Part shown: positions 28,241-62,123 of the stretch, piece after piece
Layout: each line of letters starts with the position of its first letter
Numbering within the stretch: the stretch's first letter is position 1
Assembly: GCF_020447315.1 (NCBI RefSeq)
Contig: NZ_JAJADQ010000015.1
Coordinates: forward strand, 62,001-126,000
Reading direction: 5' to 3'
Origin: Hymenobacter nitidus
Lineage (GTDB): Bacteria > Bacteroidota > Bacteroidia > Cytophagales > Hymenobacteraceae
Length of the DNA: 64,000 bases
Position numbers and translations under genes: made by a program
Notes under the pieces: model-generated
Told to the model about the DNA's origin: nothing
The model's database searches: none
The model's input: only the letters and a program-made list of their open reading frames with translations

Positions 28241-28304
28241 CATTATAAACGCCCGGCCTACCCGTCCGGTTTTTACACCGCTGGCCTTTTTCCTTGCATA
28301 ATTT
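28241..28304 (-). promoter_or_regulatory. Copper-regulon operator and promoter of the DUF305 gene
   Basis: Read on the minus strand, AAATTATGCAAG starts at 28304 and TGTA starts at its position 28 (28277-28274). A TTTATAAT-like -7 region lies at positions 56-63. The spacing matches the other six sites. The start codon follows at 28217. Confidence 0.6.
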
Positions 28305-28310
28305 CGCAGG

Positions 28311-28943
28311 CTACAGCAGCGCGTCCAGGCTGCGCCGGGCGTGGCTGGCAGGTCCGAGCCGCTGAAACTCAGTAGGGGTAAGCCCCGTCACCTGCCCGAA
28401 CTGCCGTGAGAGATGGGCCGGGGAGCTGTAGCCCAACTGCCCGGCCACCTGGGCAATGCTCAGCTCTCCGTAGCCGATGAGCTCCTTGGCCCGCTCCACC
28501 TTCTGGCGGATGATAAACTTCTCAATGGTCAGGCCTTCCTCGGACGAAAACAGGTGCGACAGGTAGTGGTAGTCCCGCCCCAGGTGCTGGACCAGGTAAT
28601 CCGAGTAGGTGAGCAGGCGCGGCCCCGGCTCGGGGTAATGAATGAGCGTCACCAGCAGGGTCTTAATCTGCTCCACCAGCTGGGCCCGCGGGTCTTCGAG
28701 CAAGGCAAAGCCCGCGGCCAGCAGGGTAGTGCGCACGGGCTCCAGGTCCGGCTCCCGGCCGTCGGCGGTGCTCACGTCGGCCTCGCCCAGCACCACGCGG
28801 TGCACCTGCAGGCCCAGGGCCGTCAGGTCTTCTCTCACCACCCGGATGCACTGGGGGCAGACCATGTTCTTAATCAGCAGCCGATGGGTGCCGGGGGCTG
28901 GCAGGGAGAAGCCGGAGCGGAGTTGGGAGTTCATGAGCGGCAT
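28311..28943 (-). CDS. HMA-AraC fusion transcription regulator, metal site intact
   Basis: The 210-residue protein has an N-terminal HMA-like ferredoxin fold (about residues 20-80) with NMVCPQCIRVV (C29xxC32), followed by an AraC-type double HTH (about residues 105-200; SIAQVAGQLGYSSPAHLSRQFGQVTGLTPTEFQ). The HMA part would sense Cu(I) or a similar thiophilic ion and the HTH would bind DNA. The first base of the start codon directly follows the cupredoxin stop, so it is the third gene of the copA operon and probably autoregulated. A paralogue at 42441-43070 has lost the second Cys. It is the best candidate reader of the seven bipartite sites. Confidence 0.85.
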   Translation of the reverse strand: MPLMNSQLRSGFSLPAPGTHRLLIKNMVCPQCIRVVREDLTALGLQVHRVVLGEADVSTADGREPDLEPVRTTLLAAGFALLEDPRAQLVEQIKTLLVTLIHYPEPGPRLLTYSDYLVQHLGRDYHYLSHLFSSEEGLTIEKFIIRQKVERAKELIGYGELSIAQVAGQLGYSSPAHLSRQFGQVTGLTPTEFQRLGPASHARRSLDALL

Positions 28944-29321
28944 CTATTTTACGACCAGGCTACCGCGCAGCATGCCCATGCCGCAGGTGAACGTAAAGGT
29001 ACCGGCCTGCTGGGGCAGCAGCTCCACAAAAGTCGTCTTGAAAGCCGGCAGGTCGCGGCGAATGCTGAAGTCGGGCATGAGCAGTTCTTCGGAGCAGGAG
29101 TTTTCCTCATCCCGGTAGAAGCTCAGTTGCACGGGCTTGCCGCGCTCGACTTCAATCACGTCCGGGGAGTAGCCACCCTTGACGGTGATGTCCACTTCCT
29201 GCACCCCGCTGGAGGTGGAAACGGCGCTGGCCGTCTGGCGGGCGGAAAAGAAGAAGTACCAGATGACGAAGGCTGACAGGGCCAGGCCCGTCAGCGTCAC
29301 GATGATTTCGGCGGTATCCAT
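28944..29321 (-). CDS. Membrane-anchored cupredoxin-domain protein
   Basis: The 125-residue product has one N-terminal helix (EIIVTLTGLALSAFVIWYFFF) and an outward-facing cupredoxin fold. Likely metal ligands are Cys in ENSCSEELLMPDF and the FTCGMGM segment near the C-terminus. This is the plan of small proteins linked to CopA in Bacteroidota. It lies four bases after copA. It may accept copper from CopA or carry it in the periplasm. Confidence 0.9.
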   Translation of the reverse strand: MDTAEIIVTLTGLALSAFVIWYFFFSARQTASAVSTSSGVQEVDITVKGGYSPDVIEVERGKPVQLSFYRDEENSCSEELLMPDFSIRRDLPAFKTTFVELLPQQAGTFTFTCGMGMLRGSLVVK

Positions 29322-29325
29322 AACC

Positions 29326-31599
29326 TTAGTTTTTAGCGGGGGAGAAGCTGCGCAGACGCAGCGAGTTGGTGAGCACCGACACCGAGCTCAGGGCCATGGC
29401 CCCGGCTGCCAGCATGGGCGAGAGCAGCAGCCCGAAGAAGGGGTAGAGCAGCCCAGCGGCGATGGGGATGCCCAGGGTGTTGTAGATGAAGGCGAAAAAC
29501 AGGTTTTGCTTGATGGTGCGGATGGTCTGGCGCGAGAGCTCGATGGCCGTGACCACGCCCTGTAAATCCGAGCGCATAAGGGTGATGCCGGCCGCTTCCA
29601 TGGCCACGTCGGTGCCGCCGCCCATGGCCAGGCCGATGTCGGCTTGGGCCAGGGCCGGCGCGTCGTTGATGCCGTCGCCCACCATGGCCACGATGCGGCC
29701 CTCGGCCTGCAGTTCCTTGACTTTACCGGCCTTGCCACTGGGCAGCACCTCGGCGAAGTAGCGCTTGATGCCCACCTGCGCGGCTACCTGGGCCGCCGTC
29801 TGGGGGTTGTCGCCCGTCATCATCACCACCTCGATGCCCATGGCCTGCAGGCGCTTGATGGCGGCGGCCGACGTGTCGCGCACGGTGTCGGCCACACCGA
29901 TGAGGCCCACGGCCTGCTGGTTCACGGCGACGTAGAGCACGGTCTTGGCTTGGCCCAGCAGCTTGTCGGCCTGCCGGCGCACGGCGGGGGAGAGCGAAAT
30001 ACCGGCCTCATTGAGCAGGCGAAAGTTGCCGATGAGCACGGCCTGCCCGTTGACGGACGCCTGCGCGCCTTTGCCCTCAATGGCCTGGAAACCCGTGGCC
30101 GGAATGGCCGGAGCCTGCTGGGCGTCGGCGTAGCGCACGACGGCCTCGGCCAGTGGGTGCTCGCTCTGCCGCTCCACGGCGGCCACTACCTGTAGCAACT
30201 GGGCAGCGTCCTGTCCTTCGGCGGGCACGAAGTCGGTGACGGCCGGCTCGCCGCGGGTGATGGTGCCGGTTTTGTCGAGCAGCACGGTGTTGACCTGGTG
30301 GGCTTTTTCCAGGGCTTCAGCGTTACGAATCAGCACGCCGTGCTCGGCGCCCTTGCCGGTGCTGACCATGATGGCTGTGGGCGTGGCCAGGCCCAGCGCG
30401 CAGGGGCAGGCGATGATGAGCACGGCCACGAAGTTGACCAGGGCCAGCGGCAAGCGCGCTTCCACCGGAGCCAGGTCAAACCAGAGCACGAAGGTGAGGA
30501 TGGCAATGACCACTACCGTGGGCACGAAGATGGCACTAACCTTATCGGCCAGCCGCTGGATAGGCGCGCGGCTGCCCTGGGCGTCTTCCACCAGCTTCAC
30601 AATCTGGGCGAGCATGGTGTCGGCGCCCACTTTCGTTACCCGAAAGCGGAAGGAGCCGGTCTTGTTCAGGGTGGCGCCGAAAACGGGGTCGCCGGTCTTT
30701 TTTTCCACGGGCAGGCTCTCGCCCGTGAGCATGGCCTCGTCCACGGCCGAGTGGCCTTCTTCAATAACGCCGTCGGTGGCCACCTTCTCGCCGGGCCGCA
30801 CCACGACGAGGTCGTTCAACTGCACCTGTTCAATCGGCACATCCACTTCCTGCCCATCGGGGCGTACCACGCGGGCGGTTTTGGCCTGCAGGCCCATCAG
30901 GGCCTTGATGGCCGCCGAGGTCTGGGTTTTGGCCCGCAGCTCCAGCACCTTGCCCAGCAGAATCAGGGCAATGATGGTGGCCGTCGTGTCGTAGTACACC
31001 TCGGGCATAATGCCCCGGCGCATAAACCAGCCCGGCACCACGGTGGCCGCGAGGCTATACAGAAACGCGGCGCCGGTACCCACGGCAATCAAAGTATCCA
31101 TGTTGGCGGCCCGGTGCTTGAAGCCATTCCAAGCCGAGGTGAAGAACTCCCGGCCACTGTACAGCAGCACGGGTAGCGTCAGCACCAGCAGCCCGTAGTT
31201 CAGCCCCTGCATGTTCACCCGGGCCATCATCGCCGGCCAGAGCATCAGCATGCTCAGCGGCATTATAATAATGGCCAGCACCGTGGCGACCCAGAAGCGG
31301 CGCTTGAGCTTGACGTAAGCCAGGGCTTTCTGCTGGTCAATTTCCGCCTGCCGGTCGGCGGCGCTGGTATCGGGCGCGCGCTCGGTCACGCCGTAGCCGG
31401 CGTTGACAACTGCCTCTTTTAGGGTGGCAGGAGTGGCCTGGGCGGGCAGGTATTCAATCGTCGCTTTTTCGGTAGCGAAGTTGACCACGGCCCGCTGCAC
31501 CCCGGGCGTGCGGGTCAGAGACTTCTCAACGAAGGACGCGCACGAGGCGCAGGTCATGCCTTCAATGTCGAGGGTTTCGGTCTTGGTGGTTGGTTCCAT
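29326..31599 (-). CDS. copA: Cu(I)-exporting P1B-ATPase CopA
   Basis: The 757-residue copper pump has one N-terminal HMA domain (GMTCASC, residues 14-20), eight helices, LTGESLP, the intramembrane [13 protein letters not shown] (CPC near 398), DKTGT near 441 with the phosphorylated Asp, SEHPLA and GDGINDAP. The [10 protein letters not shown] form is that of Cu/Ag ATPases. The following genes are the cupredoxin and the HMA-AraC regulator in one unit. Two tandem copies of the bipartite motif lie 70-190 bases upstream of its start. Confidence 0.96.
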
Positions 31600-31668
31600 A
31601 GAAATAAGCAGCTATGATGCTGCATTGGGCCGGGAAACACAATGTTCCCCGGGCTAGAAAGCACCTTA

Positions 31669-31730
31669 CAAAGGAACGGCGCTCCCGTGGCGGGGTTAGT
31701 ACGGAATCTCATCCGAAACTTGCATAATTT
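31669..31730 (-). promoter_or_regulatory. copA promoter-proximal copper-regulon site
   Basis: On the minus strand AAATTATGCAAG starts at 31730, CGTA (one change from TGTA) at its position 28, and TTCCTTTG, a -7-like box, at position 55 (31676-31669). The layout equals that of the plus-strand sites near 43-45 kb. The copA start is 70 bases beyond. Confidence 0.65.
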
Positions 31731-31755
31731 GCACGTAGCGGGCCGGTAATGGATT

Positions 31756-31786
31756 TACATAATCCGGCCGCAGGCTTGCATAATTT
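31756..31786 (-). promoter_or_regulatory. Second, distal copper-regulon site upstream of copA
   Basis: AAATTATGCAAG starts at 31786 on the minus strand, with TGTA exactly at position 28 (31759-31756). It is 56 bases from the proximal site. No good -7 box follows, so it may be an auxiliary binding site. Confidence 0.55.
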
Positions 31787-31923
31787 TGCGGTCAGCAACC
31801 AGGGGCTTTTCGCTTAACCGCCGCTTAAAACGCCCCGGGGGCCCTTTGCGGTCCTTTTTTTCAGATTGAGCGGCCACCCGCGGGGACAGGCCGGAAACTC
31901 TTTATTTAGAAATGGGGTAAATA

Positions 31924-31959
31924 GGCGGTACCGCCTTTTCGTGGAGAAGTCTACTTTTG
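31924..31959 (+). promoter_or_regulatory. Palindrome GGCGGTACCGCC plus -7 box TACTTTTG
   Basis: A perfect palindrome (31924-31935, extendable by one A-T pair) lies 16 bases before TACTTTTG (31952-31959), and so covers the expected -33 region. It is 20 bases before the start of the gene at 31979. It is not a copy of the bipartite motif, so another regulator may act here. Confidence 0.5.
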
Positions 31960-31978
31960 CGGTTGCTTAACGCCTCTC

Positions 31979-32461
31979 ATGTTCCGTAGCCTGTTCCCTT
32001 TCCGCCGTTTGCTGGCGACGAGCTTCCTGCTCGTCTTCGTCAACGTGTTCGTGGGCCAGTGCTACTGCGCCACGCTTAACCCAGTGCAAGCGGCCCCGGT
32101 GGCCAAGGTCACCCCGCCGCAGAAGCCTTCACACCCTGGCTGCCACGGTCACGACAATGCCACGGCAAAGCAGCAACCCACCAAGACCAAGCAGGACAAT
32201 GCCCAGCACAACTCCAAGCCCGCGGGCAAGGATGACTGCTGCCAGGACAACTCGGCTGCTATCCTTAAGTCGCTCACCACGCCGGCTGAAAAGCAGCTGA
32301 TGACGTCTGCGCCGGCTTTGCTGCCGGCCAGCAGCGACTTCTTTTTCCGGCCCGCTGCCGGACAGTGGGACCGCACCCACTCGGTCGTTCTGGTGCTCCG
32401 CGAGCACCTGCCCCCCAAAATACCCGACATCCGCATCTTTATTCAGTCCCTGACGGTCTGA
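31979..32461 (+). CDS. Secreted His/Cys-containing hypothetical protein of the copper block
   Basis: The 160-residue product has a signal-like helix (LLATSFLLVFVNVFVGQCYC), then a Lys/Gln/His-rich linker with CHGHDN and DDCCQDN, and a C-terminal region ending in KIPDIRIFIQSLTV. I do not recognise a family. The cluster of Cys and His and the position between copA and a string of metal-binding lipoproteins suggest periplasmic copper handling. A promoter box and a palindrome precede it and a hairpin follows. Confidence 0.65.
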   Translation: MFRSLFPFRRLLATSFLLVFVNVFVGQCYCATLNPVQAAPVAKVTPPQKPSHPGCHGHDNATAKQQPTKTKQDNAQHNSKPAGKDDCCQDNSAAILKSLTTPAEKQLMTSAPALLPASSDFFFRPAAGQWDRTHSVVLVLREHLPPKIPDIRIFIQSLTV

Positions 32462-32479
32462 TTGATTTGACGCGCCCAA

Positions 32480-32523
32480 GGCTCGCCCTGGCATAGCTCT
32501 GCTATGTCCGGGGCGGGCCTTTG
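32480..32523 (+). terminator. Long GC-rich hairpin, probable terminator
   Basis: The stem includes CATAGC/GCTATG around a three-base loop and an outer imperfect GGC-GCCC pairing to GGGCGGGCC. It is followed by only three T, so the termination strength is uncertain. Confidence 0.5.
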
Positions 32524-32595
32524 CATTGTCGTGTCCGCCCGGCGCTTAGCTGCCCCCTCCCTCCTTCATCTTCCTGGTTTTACCCTCGCCTGACA

Positions 32596-32727
32596 ATGAA
32601 AAGTTGTTGCGAAGAAGCCGGCGCACCCGCCCCCCAAGGCCCGGTTCGCCGCCTGCTGTCCTACCTGCTCTACGCCGCGGTAGCTGCCGGGCTGGGCTTC
32701 GTGCTCTGGCAGCAGTGGCAGGCCTAG
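32596..32727 (+). CDS. Small single-helix membrane protein with N-terminal CC motif
   Basis: The 43-residue product reads MKSCCEEAGAPAPQGP, then a helix (LLSYLLYAAVAAGLGFVLWQQW). The Cys pair lies on the side before the helix. It is 69 bases before a metal-binding lipoprotein gene in the same direction. Small proteins of this kind often go unannotated. The function is unknown; binding of Cu(I) by the Cys pair is possible. Confidence 0.55.
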   Translation: MKSCCEEAGAPAPQGPVRRLLSYLLYAAVAAGLGFVLWQQWQA

Positions 32728-32795
32728 CCGCCCGGCAGCAGCGCCCCGGACTACTGGATATAGTCTCCCCATCTGTTCAACCCCATTCCCCTTTT

Positions 32796-33743
32796 ATGCA
32801 CCGCATACCGCTTTCCCTGCTGGCCCTGGCTGGCCTGCTCACCGCCAGCAGCTGCTCGTCCGAAACCGAGTCCAGCAAAACCACCGACACCGTGACCACG
32901 CCCACCAACGGCCCGGCCGAAGGCACCGCCGAGCATGGCGGGGGCCACACCTACGCCTGCCCCATGCACCCCGAGGTGACCAGCACCAAAGAGGGCGACA
33001 AGTGCCCCAAGTGCGGCATGAACCTGGAGCACAACGACAAGGTGGCCAACGGCAAAACCTACGAAATGAAGCTGGTGCCCACGCCCACGCAGGTGACGGC
33101 CGGGCAGCCCACCACGCTGGCTTTCACGCCCGTGGAAACGGGCAAAGGCTCGGCTCCCGTGCCCCTGGATGTGGTCCATGAGAAGAAGATTCACCTCATC
33201 ATCGTCAGCAAGGACCTGGGCCAGTTCTACCACGAGCACCCCGAGTACACGGCTGAGGGCGACTACAAAGTGAAGTACACCTTCCCCAAGGGCGGCGACT
33301 ACGTGCTGTTTCAGGACTATACGCCCACGGGCTCAGGCCACCAGCTCGGCCGCCAGCCCTTCACGGTGAAGGGCACGGCGTATGCGCCGGTCAAGTTCAA
33401 GAACGACGATATGCAGTGGGAGAAGGACGGCTACCAGGCCACCCTTGCCTTCGACAAAGACCTGAAAGTGGGCCAGCTGCTGGGCATGAAAATCAACATC
33501 AGCAAGGACGGCCAGCCAGTAACTGACCTCGCCAACTACCTCGGCGCGCTGGGCCACGTGGTGGTCATCAGCGAGGACACCGAGCAGTACCTGCACGTGC
33601 ACCCCAACGACCAGGCCGACAAGGGCCCCAACATCGGCTTCAACACCAACTTCGAAAAGCCCGGCCTCTACCGCGTGTTCCTGCAGTTTAACCACGCCGG
33701 TAAGATTCACACCGGTGACTTCACCATCAACGTGAAGGCCTAG
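32796..33743 (+). CDS. Lipoprotein with heavy-metal-binding (YACPMHP) domain and repeated FixH/YtkA-like beta domain
   Basis: The 315-residue lipoprotein (lipobox ASSC near residue 20) has the metal-binding segment YACPMHPEV ... KCPKCGMNLEH (about residues 54-85), whose Cys, Met and His bind copper or zinc in this family. The remainder has two beta-rich halves with HEKKIHLIIVSKDL/FYHEHPEY and LGHVVVISED/YLHVHPND, each with His pairs. That plan is seen in periplasmic copper-handling proteins of Bacteroidota. It is followed by DUF305 and another YTCPM protein, all in one direction. Confidence 0.85.
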   Translation: MHRIPLSLLALAGLLTASSCSSETESSKTTDTVTTPTNGPAEGTAEHGGGHTYACPMHPEVTSTKEGDKCPKCGMNLEHNDKVANGKTYEMKLVPTPTQVTAGQPTTLAFTPVETGKGSAPVPLDVVHEKKIHLIIVSKDLGQFYHEHPEYTAEGDYKVKYTFPKGGDYVLFQDYTPTGSGHQLGRQPFTVKGTAYAPVKFKNDDMQWEKDGYQATLAFDKDLKVGQLLGMKINISKDGQPVTDLANYLGALGHVVVISEDTEQYLHVHPNDQADKGPNIGFNTNFEKPGLYRVFLQFNHAGKIHTGDFTINVKA

Positions 33744-33805
33744 CGTGTGGGCTGGGCCCCTTCCAGCTTGCCTCTCTCTTTCTTCCACTTTCCCCAACCA
33801 CACCC

Positions 33806-34531
33806 ATGAAAAAGTCAGCTTTTTTCCTCGCAGCCCTCTGCTCGGGCTCCCTGCTGGTTGCCAGCTGCAACAGCGACAAGGCCGCCGATTCGACGGCTAC
33901 TACCACCGAAACGACCACCGCTGAGGGCACCGCCTCCGGTGACATGGCCGGCATGGACCACTCGGCCATGGGCCACGACGGGGCCACTGCGGCCGGCGAC
34001 TCGCCGCAGCTGGTGGCCATGAACGAGATGATGCAGAAGATGCACGCCAGCAAGCCCAAGGGCAACACCGACCACGACTTCGCCCACCACATGCTGGAGC
34101 ACCACAAGGGCGCGGTTGTCATGGCTGACATTCAGCTGCGCGACGGCAAAGACGCCACCATGCGCCAGATGGCCGAGAAAATCAAAGCCGACCAGCAAAA
34201 GGAAATCGCCGAGCTGGAAGCCGCGGCCACCCGCCTCGATAACGCCCCGACCAACTACAAGCCCAACGACCCCACGGACCCCTTCACCAGCAAGATGAAG
34301 GCCTCGATGGACGCCATGATGCCGATGCCAAAAAGCGTGGCAGACCCGGACATGAACTTCAACATGCTCATGACCATGCACCACCAGAGCGCCGTGGATA
34401 TGGCCAAGGCGGAGTTGGCCCACGGCAAAGACACCAAGCTCAAGCAGATGGCCCAGCAGATAATAGATGCCCAGGAGAAGGAAATAGCGGCCTTCAAGGA
34501 CTGGCACAATAAGAACGCCGACAAAATGTAG
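33806..34531 (+). CDS. DUF305 lipoprotein, canonical
   Basis: The 241-residue lipoprotein has lipobox LVASC (Cys near 19), then a Thr/Ala-rich linker and an MAGMDHSAMGHD segment. It has two DUF305 repeats: DHDFAHHMLEHHKGAVVMADIQL and DMNFNMLMTMHHQSAVDMAKAEL, with HH pairs and Met residues. It is the closest relative of 27597-28217. It lies 62 bases after the YACPMHP lipoprotein. It is likely a periplasmic copper or silver buffer. Confidence 0.92.
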   Translation: MKKSAFFLAALCSGSLLVASCNSDKAADSTATTTETTTAEGTASGDMAGMDHSAMGHDGATAAGDSPQLVAMNEMMQKMHASKPKGNTDHDFAHHMLEHHKGAVVMADIQLRDGKDATMRQMAEKIKADQQKEIAELEAAATRLDNAPTNYKPNDPTDPFTSKMKASMDAMMPMPKSVADPDMNFNMLMTMHHQSAVDMAKAELAHGKDTKLKQMAQQIIDAQEKEIAAFKDWHNKNADKM

Positions 34532-34573
34532 CCCAAAGGCTACTCCAACCCACTTTACTCATAACCCCCTCTC

Positions 34574-35125
34574 ATGAAGATTTCGCAAATTCTCGCCGCC
34601 ACCCTGTTGCTCGCCGCCCCGCTCACCGTTGCCGCTCAGCACAGCCACAAGCCCGGCACCGCTGCCCACGGCCACAAAGCCGCCGGCGAAACCCACGCCC
34701 ACAAATCCCCCCACGGCGGAACGGTCCGCACGGCCGGCAAATACCACCTCGAACTGGTGCAGCAAGCCGGGGAGGTGCACGTGTACCTGCTCGACGCCAA
34801 CGAGAAAACCATGCCGCTGGACCGTTCCACCGGCACGGCCATGCTGCTAAGCACGGCGGGCAAAACCACCAGCGTGAAGCTGACCCCTACCGGCGACCAT
34901 TTCGTGGCCGCCGTGCCCGCCGGCACCACCCTGCGCACGGCCATCGTGAGCCTGAAAGCCAACGGCAGCTCGCTCAGCGCCCGCTTTGAAAAGCTCGACG
35001 CGGCGGCCAAAGCCAGCAAGGCCACGGCCGCCGCCTACACCTGCCCCATGAACTGCGAAGGCTCGGCCAGCGACAAGCCCGGCAGCTGCCCGAAGTGCGG
35101 CATGGCCCTGGTGAAAAAGTCATAG
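34574..35125 (+). CDS. Secreted protein with His-rich start and C-terminal YTCPM metal-binding domain
   Basis: The 183-residue product has a signal peptide cleaved at VAA-Q near residue 21. A His-rich linker (HSHKPG ... HGHKAAGETHAHKSPHGG) is followed by a beta-rich middle domain with YHLELVQQAGEVHVYLLD. The C-terminal heavy-metal-binding segment is YTCPMNCEG ... SCPKCGMAL. In the usual motif PMHP the His is replaced, here PMNC. It follows the DUF305 gene by 42 bases and likely belongs to the same unit. Confidence 0.85.
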   Translation: MKISQILAATLLLAAPLTVAAQHSHKPGTAAHGHKAAGETHAHKSPHGGTVRTAGKYHLELVQQAGEVHVYLLDANEKTMPLDRSTGTAMLLSTAGKTTSVKLTPTGDHFVAAVPAGTTLRTAIVSLKANGSSLSARFEKLDAAAKASKATAAAYTCPMNCEGSASDKPGSCPKCGMALVKKS

Positions 35126-35140
35126 ACGTCGCCTGCTTTT

Positions 35141-35176
35141 CGGACGCCGGGCGTCCGGACCCGCTTCGTCCGGGTC
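35141..35176 (+). other. Two adjacent GC-rich hairpins
   Basis: CGGACGC and GCGTCCG flank three bases (35141-35157), and GACCCG pairs with CGGGTC (35158-35176). No T tract follows. They separate the metal-binding lipoprotein unit from the second efflux operon and may end transcription or process the RNA. Confidence 0.45.
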
Positions 35177-35227
35177 GTCTGCCGCTGCAACGGTAGGCGG
35201 CCCGCTGGCTCGCTCTAACCTGATTAT

Positions 35228-36472: not shown

Positions 36473-36473
36473 C

Positions 36474-37094: not shown

Positions 37095-37106
37095 TGCTAC
37101 CCCGAT

Positions 37107-38252
37107 ATGAAAACCAAGCATAAAATCCTGGCCGCTACGGCCGCCGCGGGACTGGTCCTGACGGTGCTGCTCCCTCCACCGGGTTTGGTGCAGGCGCACG
37201 GTGGCGAAGACCACGGCGGCACGGCTAAAGCCAGCACCGGCGTGGCCCTTTCCGACGAGGTACTGCTGCCCAAGGAAAGCCAGTTCCTGTTTCAGGTGCG
37301 CACCAACCTGGCTGCTTTCTCCACCACCTACAGCCGGGCCACGCTCTACGGCACGGTGTCGGCCGCGGCCGGGGGCGAGGGCCGCATCGTGGTTCCCCAG
37401 ACCGGGCGCATCGTGAGCCTCGCGGCCCAGGTAGGCAAAACGGTGCGGGCCGGGCAGACCCTGGCCGTCATCGAACAAACGCTGGACGCCACCCAGCAAA
37501 TCGGGCTCAGCACCGAGCGGGCCAACGCCCAGGCCGAGCTGCGCGCCGCCCAGCAGGACTACGCCCGCCTGCAGAGCATCGCCGACATCGCCGCCCGCAA
37601 GGACGTGGTGGCCGCCGAGCTGCGCCTGCGCCAGGCCCGCCAGAACGCCAGCATCTACAACGGCCAGGCCCAGCAGCGCCGCGTGAGCATCACCTCGCCC
37701 GTGAGCGGCACCGTGGACGTGTTTAATCTCGCTGTCGGTCAACAAGTCAACCAGGGCGACGAGCTGTTTCGCGTCATCAACCCCGGTAAGCTGCGCGTGG
37801 AGGCCCAGGTGTTTGCCCAGGACCTGGACAAAGTCACGCCCGGGGCCGTGTTCCGGGTGGAGGGCCTGCAGGGCCAGGCCGGCGTGCCCGCCCGCCTGGT
37901 GGTGTTCAGCAACGTGGTGAACCCGGTGAACCAGGCCCGCCAGCTGGTGCTGGAGCTCGACGCCCAGCAGGGCAGCGCCTACCGCGCCGGCCAGGCCGTG
38001 AACGTGCAGGTCGTGGGCCAGACCGGCGGGGGCAAGCCCCAGCTGGTGGTGCCCACCTCGGCCATCACCGACCTCAACGGCAAGCCCGTGGTGTTTGTGC
38101 ACACCGAGCCCGAGCGGTTCAAGATTCGCTACGTGCAGCCCGGCGCCGTGAACGGCCAGCAGACCGTGCTGGTGCAGGGCGAAATCAACGAAAACGACCG
38201 GGTGGTCACCGCCGGCACCTACCAGCTCAAATCCATTTACCTCAACCAATAA
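37107..38252 (+). CDS. RND efflux periplasmic adaptor with His-rich N-terminus
   Basis: The 381-residue membrane-fusion protein has a signal, a His-rich HGGEDHGG segment near residue 32, lipoyl halves (VVPQTGRIVSLAAQVGKTVRAG and VSITSPVSGTVDVFNLAVGQQV), a coiled-coil hairpin (about residues 130-185) and a beta-barrel domain. It couples the TolC-like channel with the pump at 38892. It lies 12 bases after the HGGEDHG protein. Confidence 0.93.
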   Translation: MKTKHKILAATAAAGLVLTVLLPPPGLVQAHGGEDHGGTAKASTGVALSDEVLLPKESQFLFQVRTNLAAFSTTYSRATLYGTVSAAAGGEGRIVVPQTGRIVSLAAQVGKTVRAGQTLAVIEQTLDATQQIGLSTERANAQAELRAAQQDYARLQSIADIAARKDVVAAELRLRQARQNASIYNGQAQQRRVSITSPVSGTVDVFNLAVGQQVNQGDELFRVINPGKLRVEAQVFAQDLDKVTPGAVFRVEGLQGQAGVPARLVVFSNVVNPVNQARQLVLELDAQQGSAYRAGQAVNVQVVGQTGGGKPQLVVPTSAITDLNGKPVVFVHTEPERFKIRYVQPGAVNGQQTVLVQGEINENDRVVTAGTYQLKSIYLNQ

Positions 38253-38286
38253 GTCCCGCTCCGCGGTGGCTTCTTTCTCCCTCCCC

Positions 38287-38796
38287 ATGAAAAATCTTTT
38301 TGCTCTCGCGGTGCTGTCTGCCACGCTTCCCTTTGCTGCCACCACGGCGCAAGCCCAGACAACTGCCGCGGCTGGTTCCGCCGATGAGGTGGCCGTGCGG
38401 GCGGTGCTAAGCAAGTACCAGCAGGCCGTGCAAAAGCTCGATACCACGGGCACGCACCGCCTGTTCACGGCCAACTCCCAGGTGTTCGAGTCGGGTGGAG
38501 TGGAAGGCTCCTACCGGCACTACGCCGAGCACCACCTGGCCCCGGAGCTCAAGGAGTTCAGCGCCTTCACCTTCAGCGACTACAAGGCCGCCGTGCAGGT
38601 AGACGGTCCTTATGCTTTCGCAACGGAAACCTACACCTATACCATTAACCTCAAGAAGGACCCCAAGGAGAAAGAGGCCAAAGCGCCCATCGTGCGCCGC
38701 GGGGTGGCCACGTCGGTACTGCGCAAAAACGCCGCCGGCCAGTGGCAAATCATGAGCACCCACACCTCGGCCCGCACGCCCCGGGTTAAGAAATAA
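38287..38796 (+). CDS. Secreted NTF2-like protein
   Basis: The 169-residue product has a clear signal peptide (MKNLFALAVLSATLPFAATTAQAQ) and an NTF2/SnoaL-like domain (VRAVLSKYQQAVQKLDTTGTHRLFT ... YAFATETYTYTIN ... GQWQIMSTHTSART). An intact relative of the broken gene at 3929-4419, it also stands next to an RND pump. ATG 38287 starts the signal peptide. Its ligand is unknown. Confidence 0.85.
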   Translation: MKNLFALAVLSATLPFAATTAQAQTTAAAGSADEVAVRAVLSKYQQAVQKLDTTGTHRLFTANSQVFESGGVEGSYRHYAEHHLAPELKEFSAFTFSDYKAAVQVDGPYAFATETYTYTINLKKDPKEKEAKAPIVRRGVATSVLRKNAAGQWQIMSTHTSARTPRVKK

Positions 38797-38891
38797 GACG
38801 AACAGGGCGTGCCCTGTCCGCCCCACTGGCCCACCGGCCGGACTACACCGAAGTCGCCCTTGAGGCTCCTTCCACTTTGCGCTAATACCCC

Positions 38892-41800
38892 ATGCTTGAT
38901 AAGATAATTCGCTTTGCCCTGCAGAACCGGCTGCTGATGCTGGCCTTCGCCGTGGGCCTCATCATTGCCGGTTCCTACACCGCCAGCCAGCTGCCGGTGG
39001 ACGTGCTGCCCGACCTCGACCGCCCGCGCGTGACCGTGTTTCTGGAAGCGCCCGGCATGGCGCCCGAGGAGGTGGAGGCCCTGGTGACGCTGCCCGTGGA
39101 AACGGCCCTGAACGGGGCCACCGGCGTGTCGGCCGTGCGGTCCAACTCGGCCATTGGCCTGGGCATGGTGTTCGTGGAGTTCGACTACGGCACCGACATC
39201 TTCACGGCCCGCCAGATTGTGAGCGAGAAGCTGCAGACCACGGGCGAGCAGCTGCCCCAGGGCATTACGCCGGTGCTGGGGCCCATTTCCTCGGTCATGG
39301 GCCAGATTATGCTGGTGGGCTTGTCGGGCGGCAAACAGACCAACGCCGCCGATTTGCGCACGCTGGCCAACTACACCGTGCGCCAGCGCCTGCTCAGCAT
39401 TCCCGGCGTGGCCCAGGTGATTCCCATCGGCGGCGACAATTTGCAGTACCAAGTCCTGCTCGATATGCCCCGGCTCAATGCCACGGGCCTGACGGTAAAC
39501 CAGGTGGAGGAAGCCCTGCGCCAGTCCAACCTGAACACGACGGGCAACTTCTTTGACCGCAACGGCTCGGAGGTGCTCATCCGCAACCTGGGCCGGCTGC
39601 GCTCGGTGGCCGACATCGAAAACATCATTGTCGGCTACCGCGAGCAGTCTCCCATCCGGGTGGCCGACGTGGCCAAGGTGGAGTTCGGGGCCCGCTTCAA
39701 GCGGGGCGACGGCAGCGTGAACGGCCGGCCCGCCGTGATTCTGAGCATCGAGAAGCAGCCCGGCGCGGCCACGGTGGGCCTGACAGCAGCCGTGGAAAAA
39801 GCCCTGGTGGAGCTGAAGCCTTCTTTGCCCAAGGACGTGCAGGTGAACACGCGCTTGTTCAAGCAGTCGGAGTTTATCGAGTCATCTATCAGCAACGTCG
39901 AGGAAGCCTTGCGCGACGGCGCCATATTGGTGGTCATCATCCTGTTTGCCTTTCTACTGAACGTGCGCACCACGTTTATTTCCCTGGTGGCCATCCCGCT
40001 CTCGTTGCTGGTCACGGCGCTGGTGTTTCGCTTTGCCGGCATCAGCATCAACACCATGACCCTCGGCGGCCTGGCCATTGCCATCGGCGAACTGGTCGAC
40101 GACGCCATCGTGGACGTGGAAAACGTGTACCGACGCCTGCGGGAAAACAAGCAGCTGCCACACCCGCAGCCGGTGCTTAAGGTTATTTATAAGGCCAGCT
40201 CCGAAGTACGCAACTCCATTGTGTACGCCACCATCATCGTGGTGCTCGTGTTCCTGCCGCTGTTTGCCCTGGAAGGCATGGAAGGCCGCATTTTTGCGCC
40301 GCTGGGCATTGCCTACATCACCAGCATCGTGGCCTCGCTGTTCGTGTCGCTCACCGTCACGCCGGTGCTCTGCTACTACCTGCTGCCCAAAATGAAGCAG
40401 ATGGACCACCCCGAAACCGACGGGGGCCTGGTGCGCTGGCTTAAGAAAAAAGACACTCGCCTGTTGGGTTGGGGCCTGCAGCATCCCAAGGCCATCCTTG
40501 GGGTAACCGGGGCGCTGTTCGTGGCGGCCATGGCGCTGATTCCGTTCTTCGGCACCGAGTTTCTGCCGCCCTTCAACGAAGGCTCGCTCACGGTCAACTT
40601 CTCGGCGCCCGCCGGCACCTCGCTGGCCGAGTCGAACCGCCTGGGCACGCTGGGCGAGCAGCAGATGCTTAAGATTCCGGAAGTGGCCTATACCGCCCGC
40701 CGCACCGGCCGCGCCGAATTGGACGAGCACGCCGAGTCGGTGAACAACTCGGAAATCGAAGTGGCCTTCAAAACGGAAGAGGAGTTGGAGAAGGAAGGCA
40801 AAACCATGCGCAGCCGCGACGAGATTCTGGCCGACATGAGGGAAAAGCTAAGCCTGATAACCGGCGTGAACGTGAACATCGGCCAGCCCATCTCCCACCG
40901 GCTCGACCACCTGTTGAGCGGCGTGCGGGCTCAGGTCGCCATCAAGGTATTTGGCAACGATTTGCTGGAGCTGCGCCGCTACGCCAACGAAGTGCGTGCC
41001 GTGGCCGGCACCGTGCCGGGCGTGGTCGACTTACAAGTGGAAAAGCAGGTCCAGATTCCCCAGCTGCTCATCCGGCCCAAGGACGAGGCCCTGCGCGCCT
41101 ACGGCATGGCCCGCGGCGAAGTGGTGCGCGACCTCGAAACCCTGTTCCAGGGCGCCGTGGTCTCGCAGATGCTCGACGGCCAGAAGCGCTTCGACCTGGT
41201 GGTGAAACTGCCCGAAGCCCAGCGCAACGACATCGCCGCCATCAACCAGACGCGCATCGAAACGCCCACCGGCGCCATGATTCCGATCAGCCAGGTGGCG
41301 GAGGTCATCTACGAGCCGGGCCCCAACACCGTCAACCACGAAAACACCCAGCGCCGGATTACCATCTCCCTGAACGTGGCCGAGCGCGATTTGGGCTCGA
41401 CGGTCAAGGAGATTCAAGCCAAGGTGAATTCGCAGGTGAAGCTGCCCCCCGGCTATTACCTCACCTACGGCGGGCAGTTTGAGAGCCAGCAGTCGGCCTC
41501 CCAGAAAATCCTGTGGCTGAGTCTGTTTTCGCTGGCCGGTATCTTCCTGGTGCTGTTCTCGCACTTCAAGTCCACCTACATGGTGGGCCAGATTATGCTG
41601 AACATCCCGCTGGCGCTCATCGGCTCCGTGGTGGCGGTGCTGCTCACGGGCGGCACGTTCAGCATTGCCTCGCTGGTGGGCTTTATCACCCTTACCGGCA
41701 TTGCCTCACGCAACGGCATCATGATGATTTCGCACTACATCCACCTCGTGGAGCACGAGGGCGAGAAGTTCGGCATCCCCATGATTATCCGCGGCTCGCT

Positions 41801-42113
41801 CGAACGCTTGGTGCCGGTGCTGATGACGGCCCTGGTGGCCGCCCTGGCCTTGGTGCCGCTCACGCTGGCCAAGGACGCGCCGGGCAAGGAAATTTTGTAC
41901 CCGGTAGCCACCGTCATCCTCGGCGGCTTGCTCTCGTCCACGTTCCTCGACATCATCGTGACGCCGGTGGTATTCTGGCTCGTGGGCGAAAAAGCGCTGG
42001 CCCAGTACTTCGCCTCCCACCAGGAAACGGGTTTGGACGACCACCCGCAGGAACTCGACGCGCAGCCGCTCACCCCGCCTTCGGATATGAATCCGGTGCT
42101 GCCCACCCGCTAG
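38892..42113 (+). CDS. CusA/CzcA-family heavy-metal RND pump
   Basis: The 1073-residue inner-membrane pump has 12 helices and two large periplasmic loops. The helix 4 relay segment is AIAIGELVDDAIVDVENVYRRL (about residues 394-415), with paired Asp and a Glu. Unlike the first pump it ends after helix 12 and has a short polar tail, with a separate TolC gene. Substrate cannot be set: the relay differs from the DFGxxVDGA form of the first pump, so the two pumps likely export different ions. Neighbours make Cu/Ag plausible. Confidence 0.93.
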   Translation: MLDKIIRFALQNRLLMLAFAVGLIIAGSYTASQLPVDVLPDLDRPRVTVFLEAPGMAPEEVEALVTLPVETALNGATGVSAVRSNSAIGLGMVFVEFDYGTDIFTARQIVSEKLQTTGEQLPQGITPVLGPISSVMGQIMLVGLSGGKQTNAADLRTLANYTVRQRLLSIPGVAQVIPIGGDNLQYQVLLDMPRLNATGLTVNQVEEALRQSNLNTTGNFFDRNGSEVLIRNLGRLRSVADIENIIVGYREQSPIRVADVAKVEFGARFKRGDGSVNGRPAVILSIEKQPGAATVGLTAAVEKALVELKPSLPKDVQVNTRLFKQSEFIESSISNVEEALRDGAILVVIILFAFLLNVRTTFISLVAIPLSLLVTALVFRFAGISINTMTLGGLAIAIGELVDDAIVDVENVYRRLRENKQLPHPQPVLKVIYKASSEVRNSIVYATIIVVLVFLPLFALEGMEGRIFAPLGIAYITSIVASLFVSLTVTPVLCYYLLPKMKQMDHPETDGGLVRWLKKKDTRLLGWGLQHPKAILGVTGALFVAAMALIPFFGTEFLPPFNEGSLTVNFSAPAGTSLAESNRLGTLGEQQMLKIPEVAYTARRTGRAELDEHAESVNNSEIEVAFKTEEELEKEGKTMRSRDEILADMREKLSLITGVNVNIGQPISHRLDHLLSGVRAQVAIKVFGNDLLELRRYANEVRAVAGTVPGVVDLQVEKQVQIPQLLIRPKDEALRAYGMARGEVVRDLETLFQGAVVSQMLDGQKRFDLVVKLPEAQRNDIAAINQTRIETPTGAMIPISQVAEVIYEPGPNTVNHENTQRRITISLNVAERDLGSTVKEIQAKVNSQVKLPPGYYLTYGGQFESQQSASQKILWLSLFSLAGIFLVLFSHFKSTYMVGQIMLNIPLALIGSVVAVLLTGGTFSIASLVGFITLTGIASRNGIMMISHYIHLVEHEGEKFGIPMIIRGSLERLVPVLMTALVAALALVPLTLAKDAPGKEILYPVATVILGGLLSSTFLDIIVTPVVFWLVGEKALAQYFASHQETGLDDHPQELDAQPLTPPSDMNPVLPTR

Positions 42114-42116
42114 GCG

Positions 42117-42428
42117 ATGCTGCACGCCTTTCTGCATATCACGGTGCCAGGGCTCTACGCCCTGGCCTTTCACCGCCCCCACTGGCGGCGGGTGTGGCTG
42201 GTGCTGGCCAGTGCCCTGCTGCTCGACCTGGACCACCTCTGGGCCACCCCCTTCTACGACCCGGGCCGCTGCAGCATCAACTTCCACACCTTTCACACCT
42301 ACTGGGCCATCGGCGGCTACGTGCTACTGCTGCTACCCGCCCGCACGCGCATCTGGGCCGTGGGCTTCCTGCTGCACATGGTGCTGGACTACACCGAATG
42401 CTGGCAGCGCGGCATTTACCTGCCTTAA
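42117..42428 (+). CDS. DUF6122 family small membrane protein
   Basis: The 103-residue product holds only the DUF6122 domain: HAFLHITVPGLYALAF, LLDLDHLWATPFYDP, NFHTFHTYWAIGGY and LLHMVLDYTECW. The His and Asp residues match those of the domain at 26672-27451 one for one. It starts three bases after the pump stop and is cotranscribed. The function is unknown; the conserved DLDH and H..D motifs suggest a membrane metal site. Confidence 0.82.
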   Translation: MLHAFLHITVPGLYALAFHRPHWRRVWLVLASALLLDLDHLWATPFYDPGRCSINFHTFHTYWAIGGYVLLLLPARTRIWAVGFLLHMVLDYTECWQRGIYLP

Positions 42429-42440
42429 CCTCGCTTGCTG

Positions 42441-43070
42441 ATGCCTAATCGCTCCGCTTCTGCTTCGCCCACCACTGTGCTTTACATCAAGCACATGGTG
42501 TGCGCGCGCGGTATCCGGGTGGTTCGGCAGGAGCTGGAAGGGCTGGGCTTGCAGGTGCTCGACGTGCGCCTGGGGGCCGCCACGGTCGCCGGAGAGCCGG
42601 AAGACCTGGACTGGCCCCGCCTGCGGGCCACGCTGGAAGCAGCCCGGTTTGCGCTGCTCGAAACCTTTCACCAGACCTTGGTGGAACGGGTCAGCGTGGC
42701 CGTGAACCGCCTGTTGCGCGAGCCCGGCGAAAGCCTGCGGCACCGGGCATTCGGGGCGGCGGTGGCCCGTGAGCTGGACCTGACGTACGGGCAGCTGAGC
42801 GCGGCCTTTGCCCGCTTGGTGGGCGATAAGACGCTGGCGGCCTACATCCTGAGTCAGCGCCTGGCTTATGCGCAGGAGCTGCTGCTTTCTTCCTCCCTGA
42901 GCGTGGGCCTAATTGCCCGGCACCTGGGCTACACCAGCCTGGCGCACTTCTCCGGCCAATTCCGGCGCTTGGCCCGCTGTTCGCCTTCCGCATATCGTCG
43001 GCTGCTGCGGGCCGAAAGGGCTCCGGTGGTAGGGGAGGAGGCCCCAAATCATGCAAGGGAAGAAGACTAA
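42441..43070 (+). CDS. HMA-AraC fusion regulator paralogue with broken CxxC
   Basis: The 209-residue protein has the same plan as 28311-28943. The N-terminal HMA-like part reads HMVCARGIRVVRQEL (C21, with G24 in place of the second Cys). The C-terminal AraC HTH reads SVGLIARHLGYTSLAHFSGQFRRLARCSPSAYRRL. Loss of one Cys would prevent two-Cys Cu(I) binding, so it may bind DNA without the metal, sense another ligand, or act as a dimer partner. Its last 25 bases contain one copy of the shared operator, which serves the next gene. It starts 12 bases after the DUF6122 gene. Confidence 0.82.
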   Translation: MPNRSASASPTTVLYIKHMVCARGIRVVRQELEGLGLQVLDVRLGAATVAGEPEDLDWPRLRATLEAARFALLETFHQTLVERVSVAVNRLLREPGESLRHRAFGAAVARELDLTYGQLSAAFARLVGDKTLAAYILSQRLAYAQELLLSSSLSVGLIARHLGYTSLAHFSGQFRRLARCSPSAYRRLLRAERAPVVGEEAPNHAREED

Positions 43071-43108
43071 TATGTAAAACCTTGGGCCACAGAGAAGGTA
43101 TACTTAGG
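43046..43108 (+). promoter_or_regulatory. Copper-regulon site and promoter for the four-helix protein
   Basis: AAATCATGCAAG (43046-43057), TGTA at position 28 (43073-43076) and a weak -7 box TACTTAGG (43101-43108) lie before the gene at 43157. The first half lies inside the regulator's coding end. Confidence 0.65.
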
Positions 43109-43156
43109 CAGCGACCCGGTTGGGTTGCCTTGTTCGTTCACCTACACCCCTTTCCC

Positions 43157-43492
43157 ATGCATACACAAAACCAAAGCCTGCTCGACGCCCTGAATGCCTG
43201 TATCGCCGCCTGTGAGCATTGTGCTACGGCCTGCCTGCAGGAAGACAACGTGAAGATGATGGCCCGCTGCGTGCTGTTGGACCGCGACTGTGCCGACATC
43301 TGCGCCCTCACCGCCCGCTTCACTGCCCGCGGCTCGGAGCACGCCGCCCATCTGCTACGCGAGTGCGCTGAAATCTGCAAGGCCTGCGCCGACGAGTGCG
43401 AGAAGCACGGCGCTCACTCCGAGCACTGCCGCCAGTGCGCCGAGGCCTGCCGCCGCTGCGAGCAGGCCTGCCGCCAGGGCATTGCTGCTTAA
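43157..43492 (+). CDS. Four-helix-bundle copper-storage protein (Csp/DUF326-like)
   Basis: The 111-residue product has no signal and about 15 Cys residues, spaced along four helices (CIAACEHCATAC, CVLLDRDCADIC, CAEICKACADEC, CRQCAEACRRCEQAC). This is the pattern of Csp proteins, which hold many Cu(I) ions inside a four-helix bundle. Lack of a signal implies a cytosolic (Csp3-like) store. It has its own operator-type site and a terminator, and so is a single-gene unit. Confidence 0.9.
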   Translation: MHTQNQSLLDALNACIAACEHCATACLQEDNVKMMARCVLLDRDCADICALTARFTARGSEHAAHLLRECAEICKACADECEKHGAHSEHCRQCAEACRRCEQACRQGIAA

Positions 43493-43512
43493 ATATCCTC
43501 GATACCATGGGA

Positions 43513-43543
43513 AGCCAGCTCGTCGCGTACGGGCTGGCTTTTT
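43513..43543 (+). terminator. Intrinsic terminator after the four-helix gene
   Basis: A seven-bp stem (43513-43519 with 43533-43539) with a 13-base loop is followed by a run of T. Confidence 0.85.
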
Positions 43544-43560
43544 CGTGGGCCCCGGTGTGT

Positions 43561-43621
43561 TAATTATGCTGGTTCGCGGCCTAATTCTGTACGCCGGGCC
43601 TGGGCGACACCCCTACTTTTG
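43561..43621 (+). promoter_or_regulatory. Copper-regulon site and promoter before the broken membrane gene
   Basis: TAATTATGCTGG (43561-43572) matches the first half at 8 of 12 positions. GCCTAATTCTGTAC, with TGTA at position 28, is nearly the same as at 44366-44378. A perfect -7 box TACTTTTG is at 43614-43621, exactly 53 bases from the start as in the 44348 site. Confidence 0.65.
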
Positions 43622-43654
43622 CGGGGTCCTTCACCCGCCCCAACTGCCTCGCTG

Positions 43655-44299
43655 ATGACAATGGCTCCCGCCCTGCGCAAGTTCATGCTCACCGCCCACA
43701 TCACGTTCTCGGTGGGCTGGCTCGGCGCCGTGGCCGTGTTCCTGGCCCTGGCCATCACCGGCCTGACCAGTTCTGATGCGTTGCTGGTGCGCACGGCCTA
43801 CCTGGCCATGGGGCTGAGCGGCTAGTTTGTTATTGTGCCCTCCAGCCTGGCCGCGCTGGCCACCGGCGTGGTGCAGGCGCTGGGCACGCCCTGGGGCTTG
43901 TTCAAGCATTACTGGGTGCTGGTCAAGCTGGTGCTCACGGTAGGGGCCACGCTGCTGTTGCTGCTACACATGCAGCCCGTCGCCTACCTGGCCGAGGTAG
44001 CCGCCAAAGCCGACCTCTCGGCAACTGACCTGCGCGGGCTGCGCCTGCAGCTGCTGGCCGATGCCGCGGCCGCGCTGGTCGTGCTGCTGGCAGCCACCGC
44101 CATTTCGGTGTACAAGCCCTGGGGCCGTATTGGTAAATGGCGGCTGCAAAAGCAGGCGCATGCCCAAGCGGTGGCCGCGGGCCACGCAACTGCTCTGCCA
44201 ACTCCCTGGGGACGCTATTTGCTCATCGCCGGGCTGGTGCTGCTCCTACTCTTTGTCATCGGCAAACACTTGCTAAGCGGGGGCATGGGCCACCATTAA
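43655..44299 (+). pseudogene. Four-helix membrane protein interrupted by an in-frame TAG
   Basis: One frame runs from ATG 43655 to 44299, with a single stop, TAG at 43823-43825, between MGLSG and FVIVPSSLAAL. Both sides are one protein: helices KFMLTAHITFSVGWLGAVAVFLALA, then FVIVPSSLAALATGVVQALGTPWGLFKHYWVLVKLVLTVGATLLLLLH, and two more helices to HHLS-like His-rich end (GGMGHH). In relatives I recall a Trp at the stop position, so a TGG to TAG change is likely. The second part could restart at GTG 43835. The promoter is intact and copper-type. Either a recent pseudogene or a read error. Confidence 0.75.
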
Positions 44300-44347
44300 A
44301 GCAAGCGTGCGACGCGGCAGGCAGGCAAAGGGTGGATTAGCGGCTAC

Positions 44348-44408
44348 AAATCATGCAAGCCTGAAGCCTAATTGTGTACCCCTTCCCGGGCACGTGCCGC
44401 TACTTTTG
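44348..44408 (+). promoter_or_regulatory. Copper-regulon site and promoter for the HMA chaperone
   Basis: AAATCATGCAAG (44348-44359), TGTA at position 28 (44375-44378) and a perfect -7 box TACTTTTG (44401-44408, offset 53) lie before the gene at 44459. This is the clearest copy of the full layout. Confidence 0.7.
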
Positions 44409-44458
44409 GGTGTTTTAATCCCGAACCCGCCCACCACGGGCGCCACGCATTTACTCCC

Positions 44459-44665
44459 ATGAAAACGCTCCAATTCAACACCAACATCAACTGCGGCGGC
44501 TGCATCAAAGCCGTAACGCCCACCCTCAACGGCGAGAAGGCGATTGCCTCCTGGCAGGTCGACACGGCCAACCCCAACAAGGTGCTCACCGTGACCGGCG
44601 ACGTGACCGAGGAGCAGGTGCTGGCGCTCGTAGAAGATGCCGGCTTCAAGGCTGAAAAGGCCTAG
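44459..44665 (+). CDS. HMA-domain copper chaperone (CopZ-like)
   Basis: The 68-residue product is a single heavy-metal-associated domain with NINCGGCIKAV (C12xxC15) and the usual beta-alpha-beta pattern (KVLTVTGDVTEEQVLALVEDAGF). It would carry Cu(I) in the cytosol to CopA. The Met usual before the first Cys is replaced by Asn. It has its own operator-type promoter. Confidence 0.9.
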   Translation: MKTLQFNTNINCGGCIKAVTPTLNGEKAIASWQVDTANPNKVLTVTGDVTEEQVLALVEDAGFKAEKA

Positions 44666-44760
44666 ACATTTTAGTGAGTGCCACCCACGGAGTACGGACC
44701 GTGGCTGTTTGAACTACCCCGCGGCCGTACCCGGCGGGCCCATCTTAACCACCAGAACCG

Positions 44761-44958
44761 ATGAAACGCAAGATGATGATGTTCGGCGCCGCGGCGCTGC
44801 TCTCCGGCGGCGCCTTGTTTGGCTTCACCAGCCCAACCCCGACCGCGGCGGATTGTCCACTGAAGGGCACCCCCGATTGCCCGCTGGTGCAAAACTGCGC
44901 CCAGGCCGGCACTCCGGCCTGCACGGCGGGAGCTCCTAGCTGCTGCGCGGCCAAGTAA
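44761..44958 (+). CDS. Small secreted Cys-rich protein
   Basis: The 65-residue product has a signal-like helix (MMMFGAAALLSGGALFGFT) and a short tail with seven Cys (DCPL ... DCPL ... NCAQ ... ACTAG ... SCC). It may bind Cu(I) in the periplasm. It lies 95 bases after the chaperone gene and before a terminator, so both are probably on one transcript. I know no named family. Confidence 0.6.
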   Translation: MKRKMMMFGAAALLSGGALFGFTSPTPTAADCPLKGTPDCPLVQNCAQAGTPACTAGAPSCCAAK

Positions 44959-44977
44959 GCTGCCCACGCTCGTGTAA

Positions 44978-45008
44978 AACGCCCGGCCCCAGTAGGTCGG
45001 GCGTTTTT
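44978..45008 (+). terminator. Intrinsic terminator after the Cys-rich gene
   Basis: An eight-bp stem AACGCCCG/CGGGCGTT (44978-44985 with 44998-45005) with a 12-base loop ends in a T run. Confidence 0.88.
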
Positions 45009-45056
45009 CGTTTTAGCGTTTCCTGGGACGGCCTGTAGTCAGGACCAGGTTGCTTG

Positions 45057-45115
45057 AAATTATGCAACCGTGCGGCCGTTTGCGTGTAAACATTGTCGCG
45101 GTTTGACTACGTATG
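45057..45115 (+). promoter_or_regulatory. Copper-regulon site and promoter of the DUF2231/multicopper oxidase pair
   Basis: AAATTATGCAAC (45057-45068) and TGTA at position 29 (45085-45088) are followed by a weak -7 box TACGTATG (45108-45115). Spacing differs by one or two bases from the other sites. An ATG at 45113 lies inside the -7 box, so it cannot be the start codon of this transcript. Confidence 0.55.
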
Positions 45116-46405: not shown

Positions 46406-46411
46406 CGACCG

Positions 46412-50983: not shown

Positions 50984-51087
50984 CGCCTTCATTTTCTAAA
51001 AACTATTATTTATAGCACAATGCTTTGCTAAATTCAATAGCACGCCGTAACGATTCCTGAAAAGAATGGGCTTAACTTTCGTCTGAA

Positions 51088-52275: not shown

Positions 52276-52298
52276 TCTCTAGTCCTTTACTTGCGTCC

Positions 52299-52955: not shown

Positions 52956-52971
52956 TACGCCGGCAACTTCT

Positions 52972-62122: not shown

Positions 62123-62123
62123 G

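Follow-up and report, generated by a model that had tools for sequence, protein, structure and literature searches.

Candidate operators of a copper regulon in Hymenobacter nitidus and an HMA-AraC protein predicted to read them

A stretch of 64,000 nucleotides from Hymenobacter nitidus (the window; positions 62,001 to 126,000 of contig NZ_JAJADQ010000015.1, the 126 kb contig C6 of a 5.54 Mb genome) contains seven copies of a bipartite sequence, which lie upstream of genes for copper detoxification. These seven sites are probably the operators of one copper-responsive regulon, with the protein encoded at 28311 (P0001), a predicted fusion of an HMA and an AraC-type domain, as their reader and with activation triggered by Cu(I). 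Judged from sequence, we give this reading a probability of roughly 0.7. It builds on a repeat and its period, on the near-fixed distance of this repeat from a promoter box, on its position upstream of copper genes in Hymenobacter and its linkage to the regulator gene across the phylum, and on the two-domain fold predicted for the protein.

The exact pattern AAATYATGCAAG-N15-YGTA is present at five places in the window, at 28304, 31730 and 31786 on the reverse strand and at 43046 and 44348 on the forward strand, while 100 dinucleotide shuffles of the window gave a mean of 0.00. Two further sites on the forward strand are degenerate: in the copy at 45057 a single base of the first box deviates and the gap is 16 bp long, and the copy at 43561 (TAATTATGCTGG) has three mismatches to the pattern. 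The original prediction, which had named these seven positions and a second box at a constant offset, one base further at 45057, is confirmed. Genome-wide there are six occurrences of the exact pattern and none of the reversed pattern, which served as a control. The sixth copy (C27:362256) is on contig C27, and a second copA has its start codon about 130 bp downstream.

A sequence profile led to the same sites. It was trained on 30 sites taken exclusively from other genomes; some of these sites belong to close relatives such as L026, which favours the 31730 site, and the training set held no Csp, CopD-like or DUF2231 promoters. Ranks one to seven in the window were exactly the seven claimed sites: the proximal copA operator (31699..31730, reverse strand; E 1.3e-12), the operator before the CopZ-like gene (44348..44379, forward; 2.7e-10), the distal copA operator (31755..31786, reverse; 4.8e-09), the operators before the Csp-like gene (43046..43077, forward; 7.6e-06) and the DUF305 gene (28273..28304, reverse; 8.4e-05), the one before the DUF2231-multicopper oxidase pair (45057..45089, forward; 0.012, first half only) and the one before an interrupted CopD-like gene (43561..43592, forward; 0.058). 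The eighth match had an E value of 0.99. Genome-wide, six matches had E<0.01, namely five window sites and the copA of contig C27, and the following match had E 0.55; between them the two scans recovered all seven window sites and the second copA. The sites at 45057 and 43561 are not among the listed genome-wide matches and their E values are weak, so that position supports both as much as score does. The site at 31786, 56 bp upstream of that at 31730, can be taken as another operator of copA, the distal one, and several relatives have it too.

Judged by its sequence, the operator has the form of a direct repeat, with a period of 21 bp (22 bp at 45057). A set of 49 Hymenobacter sites, thinned from 119 to less than 72% identity over 80 bp, shows AATTATGCAAG in positions 1-11, followed by ATTnnGTA in positions 23-30. 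Several copies have ATTATGCAA followed by ATTATGTAA, which means that the operator consists of one element present twice, in the same orientation and 21 bp apart. The original prediction had seen AAAT and TGTA as parts of two unlike half-sites for the two helix-turn-helix (HTH) motifs of one protein. This model was rejected because the thinned sites as well as the strongest copies show a single element twice. The simplest reading of two such copies is one protomer on each, and two AraC-type protomers per operator fit better than one protein with two HTHs.

The repeat keeps a near-fixed distance to the -7 box of the Bacteroidota promoter (T-A/T-n-n-TTTG), which usually starts 32 bp after the start of the proximal repeat. 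Among 26 non-redundant Hymenobacter sites that have such a box, it starts at operator position 54 in 22 and at position 53 in four. In the window, the proximal copA operator has TTCCTTTG at position 54 (31669..31676, reverse strand), the 43561 and 44348 sites both have TACTTTTG at position 53 (43614-43621 and 44401-44408), and a weak box, TACGTATG, is found at position 51 of the 45057 site; a search with the box pattern found none at 28304, 31786 and 43046. A TAnnTTTG-like box had been claimed for most of the seven copies, which overstated the case, as it is clear at three only. In a flavobacterium, according to a transcription start site map, the -7 box spans -12 to -5 (PMC9723704). This would put the proximal repeat at about -44 to -35, with the distal repeat at about -65 to -56, and the 21-bp repeat, ending at about -35, adjoins the core promoter as direct repeats of the AraC/XylS family do. 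Operators with a 22-bp period precede RND efflux genes in six Hymenobacter relatives (L075, L076, L077, L079, L080 and L081), and five of the six have a TAnnTTTG box that starts at position 55, so that the longer period leaves the 32-bp distance from proximal repeat to box unaltered. Such a geometry is expected of class II activators, and this role is predicted here.

The same operator and regulator could also serve repression, with the protein blocking polymerase in the absence of copper and copper releasing it. The proximal repeat does abut the promoter, as this would require, but the repeat ends near -35 and leaves the -7 box uncovered, and the distance from proximal repeat to box is kept at the 22-bp period. 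Members of the AraC family placed in this way are typically activators. The -33 TTG element was found in none of the 26 Hymenobacter sites with a -7 box, but its absence is not decisive and is no proof of activation, since passages of a study on F. johnsoniae describe it as not found there as well (PMC7366714). Repression seems unlikely on this evidence.

The placement of the operator was compared across the genus. The pattern with its boxes on register was found in 65 of 120 Hymenobacter genomes, against one match for the reversed pattern; a control with the boxes 1-2 bp off register was found in eight of the 120, with two reversed-control matches, and six of these eight genomes carry the 22-bp forms before RND genes. 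From the on-register matches a subset of 29 loci of other genomes was fetched (L112-L140, one per genome), and in all 29 the site stands before copA or copZ. Loci chosen instead by similarity of the regulator (L025-L074) were scored for a relaxed site. Of 38 distinct regions upstream of copA, 36 contain it, and the two exceptions (L036 and L050) have the first repeat with the second one altered. Five neighbouring genes used as controls had no site in their upstream regions (0/32 for a CopL-like gene, 0/28 for a second DUF305 gene, and 0/15, 0/37 and 0/37 for the others), the last two being weaker controls as they lie behind copA in the same gene run. The operator is thus confined to copper genes in Hymenobacter, by the motif-chosen loci and by the comparison of copA with the controls. 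For the other targets we counted the motif-chosen loci as well and left aside the six loci with the 22-bp form; the site was then present in both of the two DUF2231 upstream regions and in none of the RND genes (0/6 in each of two sets). That the RND operons lack the operator was part of the original prediction, and this holds for both RND operons of the window, where the profile scan gave no copy, but not for the six relatives with a 22-bp-period copy before an RND gene. The proposal of a copper regulon read by the 28311 protein is supported in part, by the contrast between copA and the controls, the motif-chosen loci and the co-occurrence with the regulator described below. It has to be widened to RND genes in relatives and freed of its half-site model.

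The candidate reader P0001 (28311..28943, reverse strand) has an AraC-type domain at residues 118-195 (Pfam HTH_18, E 2e-17; HTH_AraC, E 6.9e-13). Residues 19-82 are folded as beta-alpha-beta-beta-alpha-beta in an AlphaFold2 model (predicted local distance difference test score 84.7, 24 sequences), with Cys29 and Cys32 of a CPQC motif at the start of the first helix, which is the ferredoxin-like fold with CxxC expected of an HMA domain. This modelled part matches the structures of CopZ, Atx1, PacS and MerP with Z scores of 8.1-8.9 (CopZ 6ff2: Z 8.9, 2.1 A over 64 residues). The remainder matches AraC, SoxS, MarA and similar domains with Z scores of 11.6-14.1, so that Pfam and structure agree on a C-terminal DNA-binding domain with two HTHs. 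Foldseek alone gave weak matches to chaperones (CsoZ E 0.1, Atx1 E 0.13). P0001 is therefore predicted to be an AraC DNA-binding domain behind an HMA domain of the CopZ/Atx1 type with CxxC. It shares fold and CxxC position with CopZ, Atx1, MerP and the N-terminus of PacS but, unlike these metallochaperones, has the domain fused to a DNA-binding domain and carries the motif NMVCxRC, here NMVCPQC. Across the phylum, 94 regulators were aligned (from 95 loci, minus two with an internal stop, plus the window protein). Cys32 is present in 94/94 and Cys29 in 88/94, and the remaining six have Ser at the latter position.

From these features we infer binding of P0001 to the repeat, copper as the signal and activation as the effect. 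The N-terminal HMA domain would take up Cu(I) through its CxxC. With a 21-bp period, equal to two helical turns, two protomers could occupy neighbouring positions on the same DNA face, and the copper-loaded protein would activate the promoters of copA, copZ and the DUF305, Csp-like and multicopper oxidase genes. Paralogs of P0001 probably read the operators too.

The linkage of repeat and regulator extends beyond the genus. At a threshold of E<=1e-20 the regulator family is present in 140 of 296 sampled genomes and in 79 of 139 genera, and 95 loci around its members were taken from the whole phylum. The species are related and the counts are thus not independent; moreover, the half-site consensus used for pairs, boxes and genome scan was fixed after part of the same loci had been viewed. 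In the 300 bp behind the regulator gene, 21 bp is by far the commonest spacing of paired half-sites (23 of 95 loci, mostly before copA), against 0-7 loci for each other spacing from 12 to 35 and a mean of 1.3, with a maximum of 3, in 20 shuffles. Inside the gene one locus has a 21-bp pair, and before the gene ten loci do. A repeat without preferred orientation was considered and rejected, because the opposite strand of the same regions has 21-bp pairs in five loci versus 23. When direct repeats behind the gene were counted free of any consensus, the maximum was again at 21 bp, with 14 loci. A scan of the distant loci with the Hymenobacter half-sites beat every shuffle in some loci only and suggested the phylum form of the repeat. 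The repeat behind a CxxC regulator goes together with copA, as 28 of 38 loci with copA within 900 bp downstream have it versus 5 of 48 others (Fisher 1.4e-9). In whole genomes, a perfect repeat occurs in 19 of 296 (22 places; one match for the reversed control), and all belong to genomes with the regulator family (19/140 versus 0/156, Fisher 3.3e-7), two groups that also differ in genome size and lineage. Five of the 22 places lie before copA, one before an RND gene and two before HMA-AraC-type genes. It could be argued that an unrelated copper regulator, of the two-component, MerR or CsoR type, reads the sites and that the HMA-AraC gene is a mere neighbour. This is highly improbable, given that the repeat accompanies the HMA-AraC gene throughout the phylum, that its perfect form is found exclusively in genomes with the family and that a 21-bp direct repeat fits AraC-type proteins.

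Several observations weigh against the proposed copper regulon under P0001. Firstly, the Pfam HMA profile does not match P0001 at E<=0.05; it finds only 3 of 24 P0001 relatives (best E 0.0013), and for this reason the domain is called HMA-like by structure and CxxC and not by profile. Secondly, the other targets in Hymenobacter are less constant than copA, with the site before 14 of 22 DUF305, 8 of 14 copZ and 2 of 8 Csp genes. Thirdly, in the phylum data the consensus-free count reached 11 loci for a 15-bp spacing as well, and within the gene it rose to 17 loci at 24 bp, so that it is modest evidence alone, and among 45 phylum repeat regions the -7 box lies at position 54 in eight and an exact box is missing in 33. 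The remaining places of the perfect repeat have downstream genes that match none of the queries made from window genes. Confinement to copper genes is accordingly less clear phylum-wide than in Hymenobacter, and since most of the 22 places lie outside the queried copper genes, a diversification of the family's targets is probable. SxxC regulators have the repeat as well. In this subgroup (L165, L186, L195 and L222), which perhaps responds to another signal, we found no copA neighbour, and some members carry the repeat before their own gene. Lastly, 12 Hymenobacter genomes without any P0001 relative above the second tier keep the strict motif.

These 12 genomes bear on the question of which HMA-AraC protein is the reader. 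The H. nitidus genome encodes three full ones, P0001, the product of the 42435 gene (42435..43070, forward strand; 37% identity) and that of a gene on C11 (42%). In the 42435 paralog the CxxC is reduced to CARG, and relatives have CARC (L133, L136) or CSRG (L054, L055) at this place; the match in L114 is in two pieces. A paralog, of the chromosomal C11 type, or several paralogs could be the main reader, in which case P0001 would have been added, on a plasmid, to a chromosomal circuit that is older. In line with this, all 12 genomes encode a second-tier HMA-AraC protein, and the motif precedes copA or copZ in all ten that were fetched; a chromosomal paralog, or else another protein, therefore probably reads it there. 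In addition, the copper cluster of the window (26000-50000) matches named Hymenobacter plasmids, with 97% of its 24 kb covered at 94.9% identity by a plasmid of H. sublimis. By this similarity C6 is probably a plasmid, whose operators would be shared with the copA of C27. On the other hand, the strict motif tracks close orthologs of P0001, as it is present in 44 of 49 genomes with one versus 21 of 71 without, and the operator of the DUF305 gene starts 7 bp behind the P0001 gene. A paralog as the main reader is quite improbable in our view, and it would be compatible with a regulon read by P0001 and not exclusive of it.

The genes behind the operators are recognizable to different degrees. On the reverse strand, the DUF305 protein (27597..28217), whose gene has an operator conserved in relatives, is a CopM-family metallochaperone by an NCBIfam match above cut-off, and copA (29326..31599) encodes a copper P-type ATPase (TIGR01511, above cut-off). 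On the forward strand, the 43046 operator overlaps the 3' end of the 42435 paralog and is followed by a Csp-like four-helix copper storage protein (43157..43492; TIGR04401 below cut-off, Pfam DUF326). The reading frame of the CopD-like membrane gene (43655-44299) is broken at codon 57, an in-frame TAG, and the frame in relatives L121 and L132 has no stop in the aligned part. The CopZ-like HMA chaperone (44459..44665) matches Pfam HMA above cut-off. The 45057 operator, conserved in L121 and L132, precedes a DUF2231 membrane protein and a CopA-type multicopper oxidase (45260..48817; TIGR01480 below cut-off). Further downstream, 50024-55368 (forward strand) contains a gene that we read as recombinase-like, a type II methyltransferase gene and one for an AAA-type ATPase that weakly matches restriction enzymes; the gene adjoining the ATPase had no match in the profile library searched. 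A CBASS-like defence cluster with cyclase, E1-E2, JAB and SAVED-HNH effector genes occupies 56581-63212 (reverse strand), and a second effector, of the SAVED-peptidase type, adjoins the SAVED-HNH effector.

AraC of E. coli at araI1-I2, like other class II activators of the AraC/XylS family, uses direct-repeat half-sites about 21 bp apart, of which the proximal one adjoins the -35 region. The arrangement described here resembles this in repeat, in position of the proximal half and in the AraC-type DNA-binding domain, but differs from AraC in its HMA-like sensor, in place of a sugar-binding cupin, and in its Bacteroidota-type promoter with TAnnTTTG. In other phyla, copA, copZ or oxidase genes are controlled by CueR, CsoR, CopY and CusRS, which have other folds and palindromic operators, in contrast to the 21-bp direct repeat. 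Passages of a study on YbtA describe an AraC-type activator whose CxxC is required and which is stimulated by copper-yersiniabactin (PMC8725597). The AraC type, a CxxC and a copper response, the last predicted for P0001, are common to both. YbtA thus provides an AraC-type response to copper outside this family, reached by a different route: it has a larger, cysteine-rich ligand domain, senses a copper-siderophore complex and drives siderophore genes rather than copper export (PMC8725597). The main text of a survey of one Bacteroidete reports MerR- and CopY-type proteins without known copper sites and does not contain the word AraC (PMC11213822), and among the papers listed by searches of the open PMC library there was no report of an AraC-type copper regulator of Bacteroidota or of its operator.

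The 21-bp signal is probably a switch for the copper response in these Bacteroidota. More broadly, we hold it slightly more probable than the contrary that HMA-AraC proteins are the cytosolic copper sensors of the phylum Bacteroidota, acting on a 21-bp repeat at a fixed distance to the -7 box, with SxxC branches that keep this operator grammar and serve other genes. If true, they would form a copper-sensor family apart from CueR, CsoR, CopY and CusRS. The analysis offers a candidate for such a family together with a definition of its putative operator, the geometry of the promoter and a list of targets, and the operator motif may be used to read copper regulons in soil, aquatic and gut Bacteroidota.

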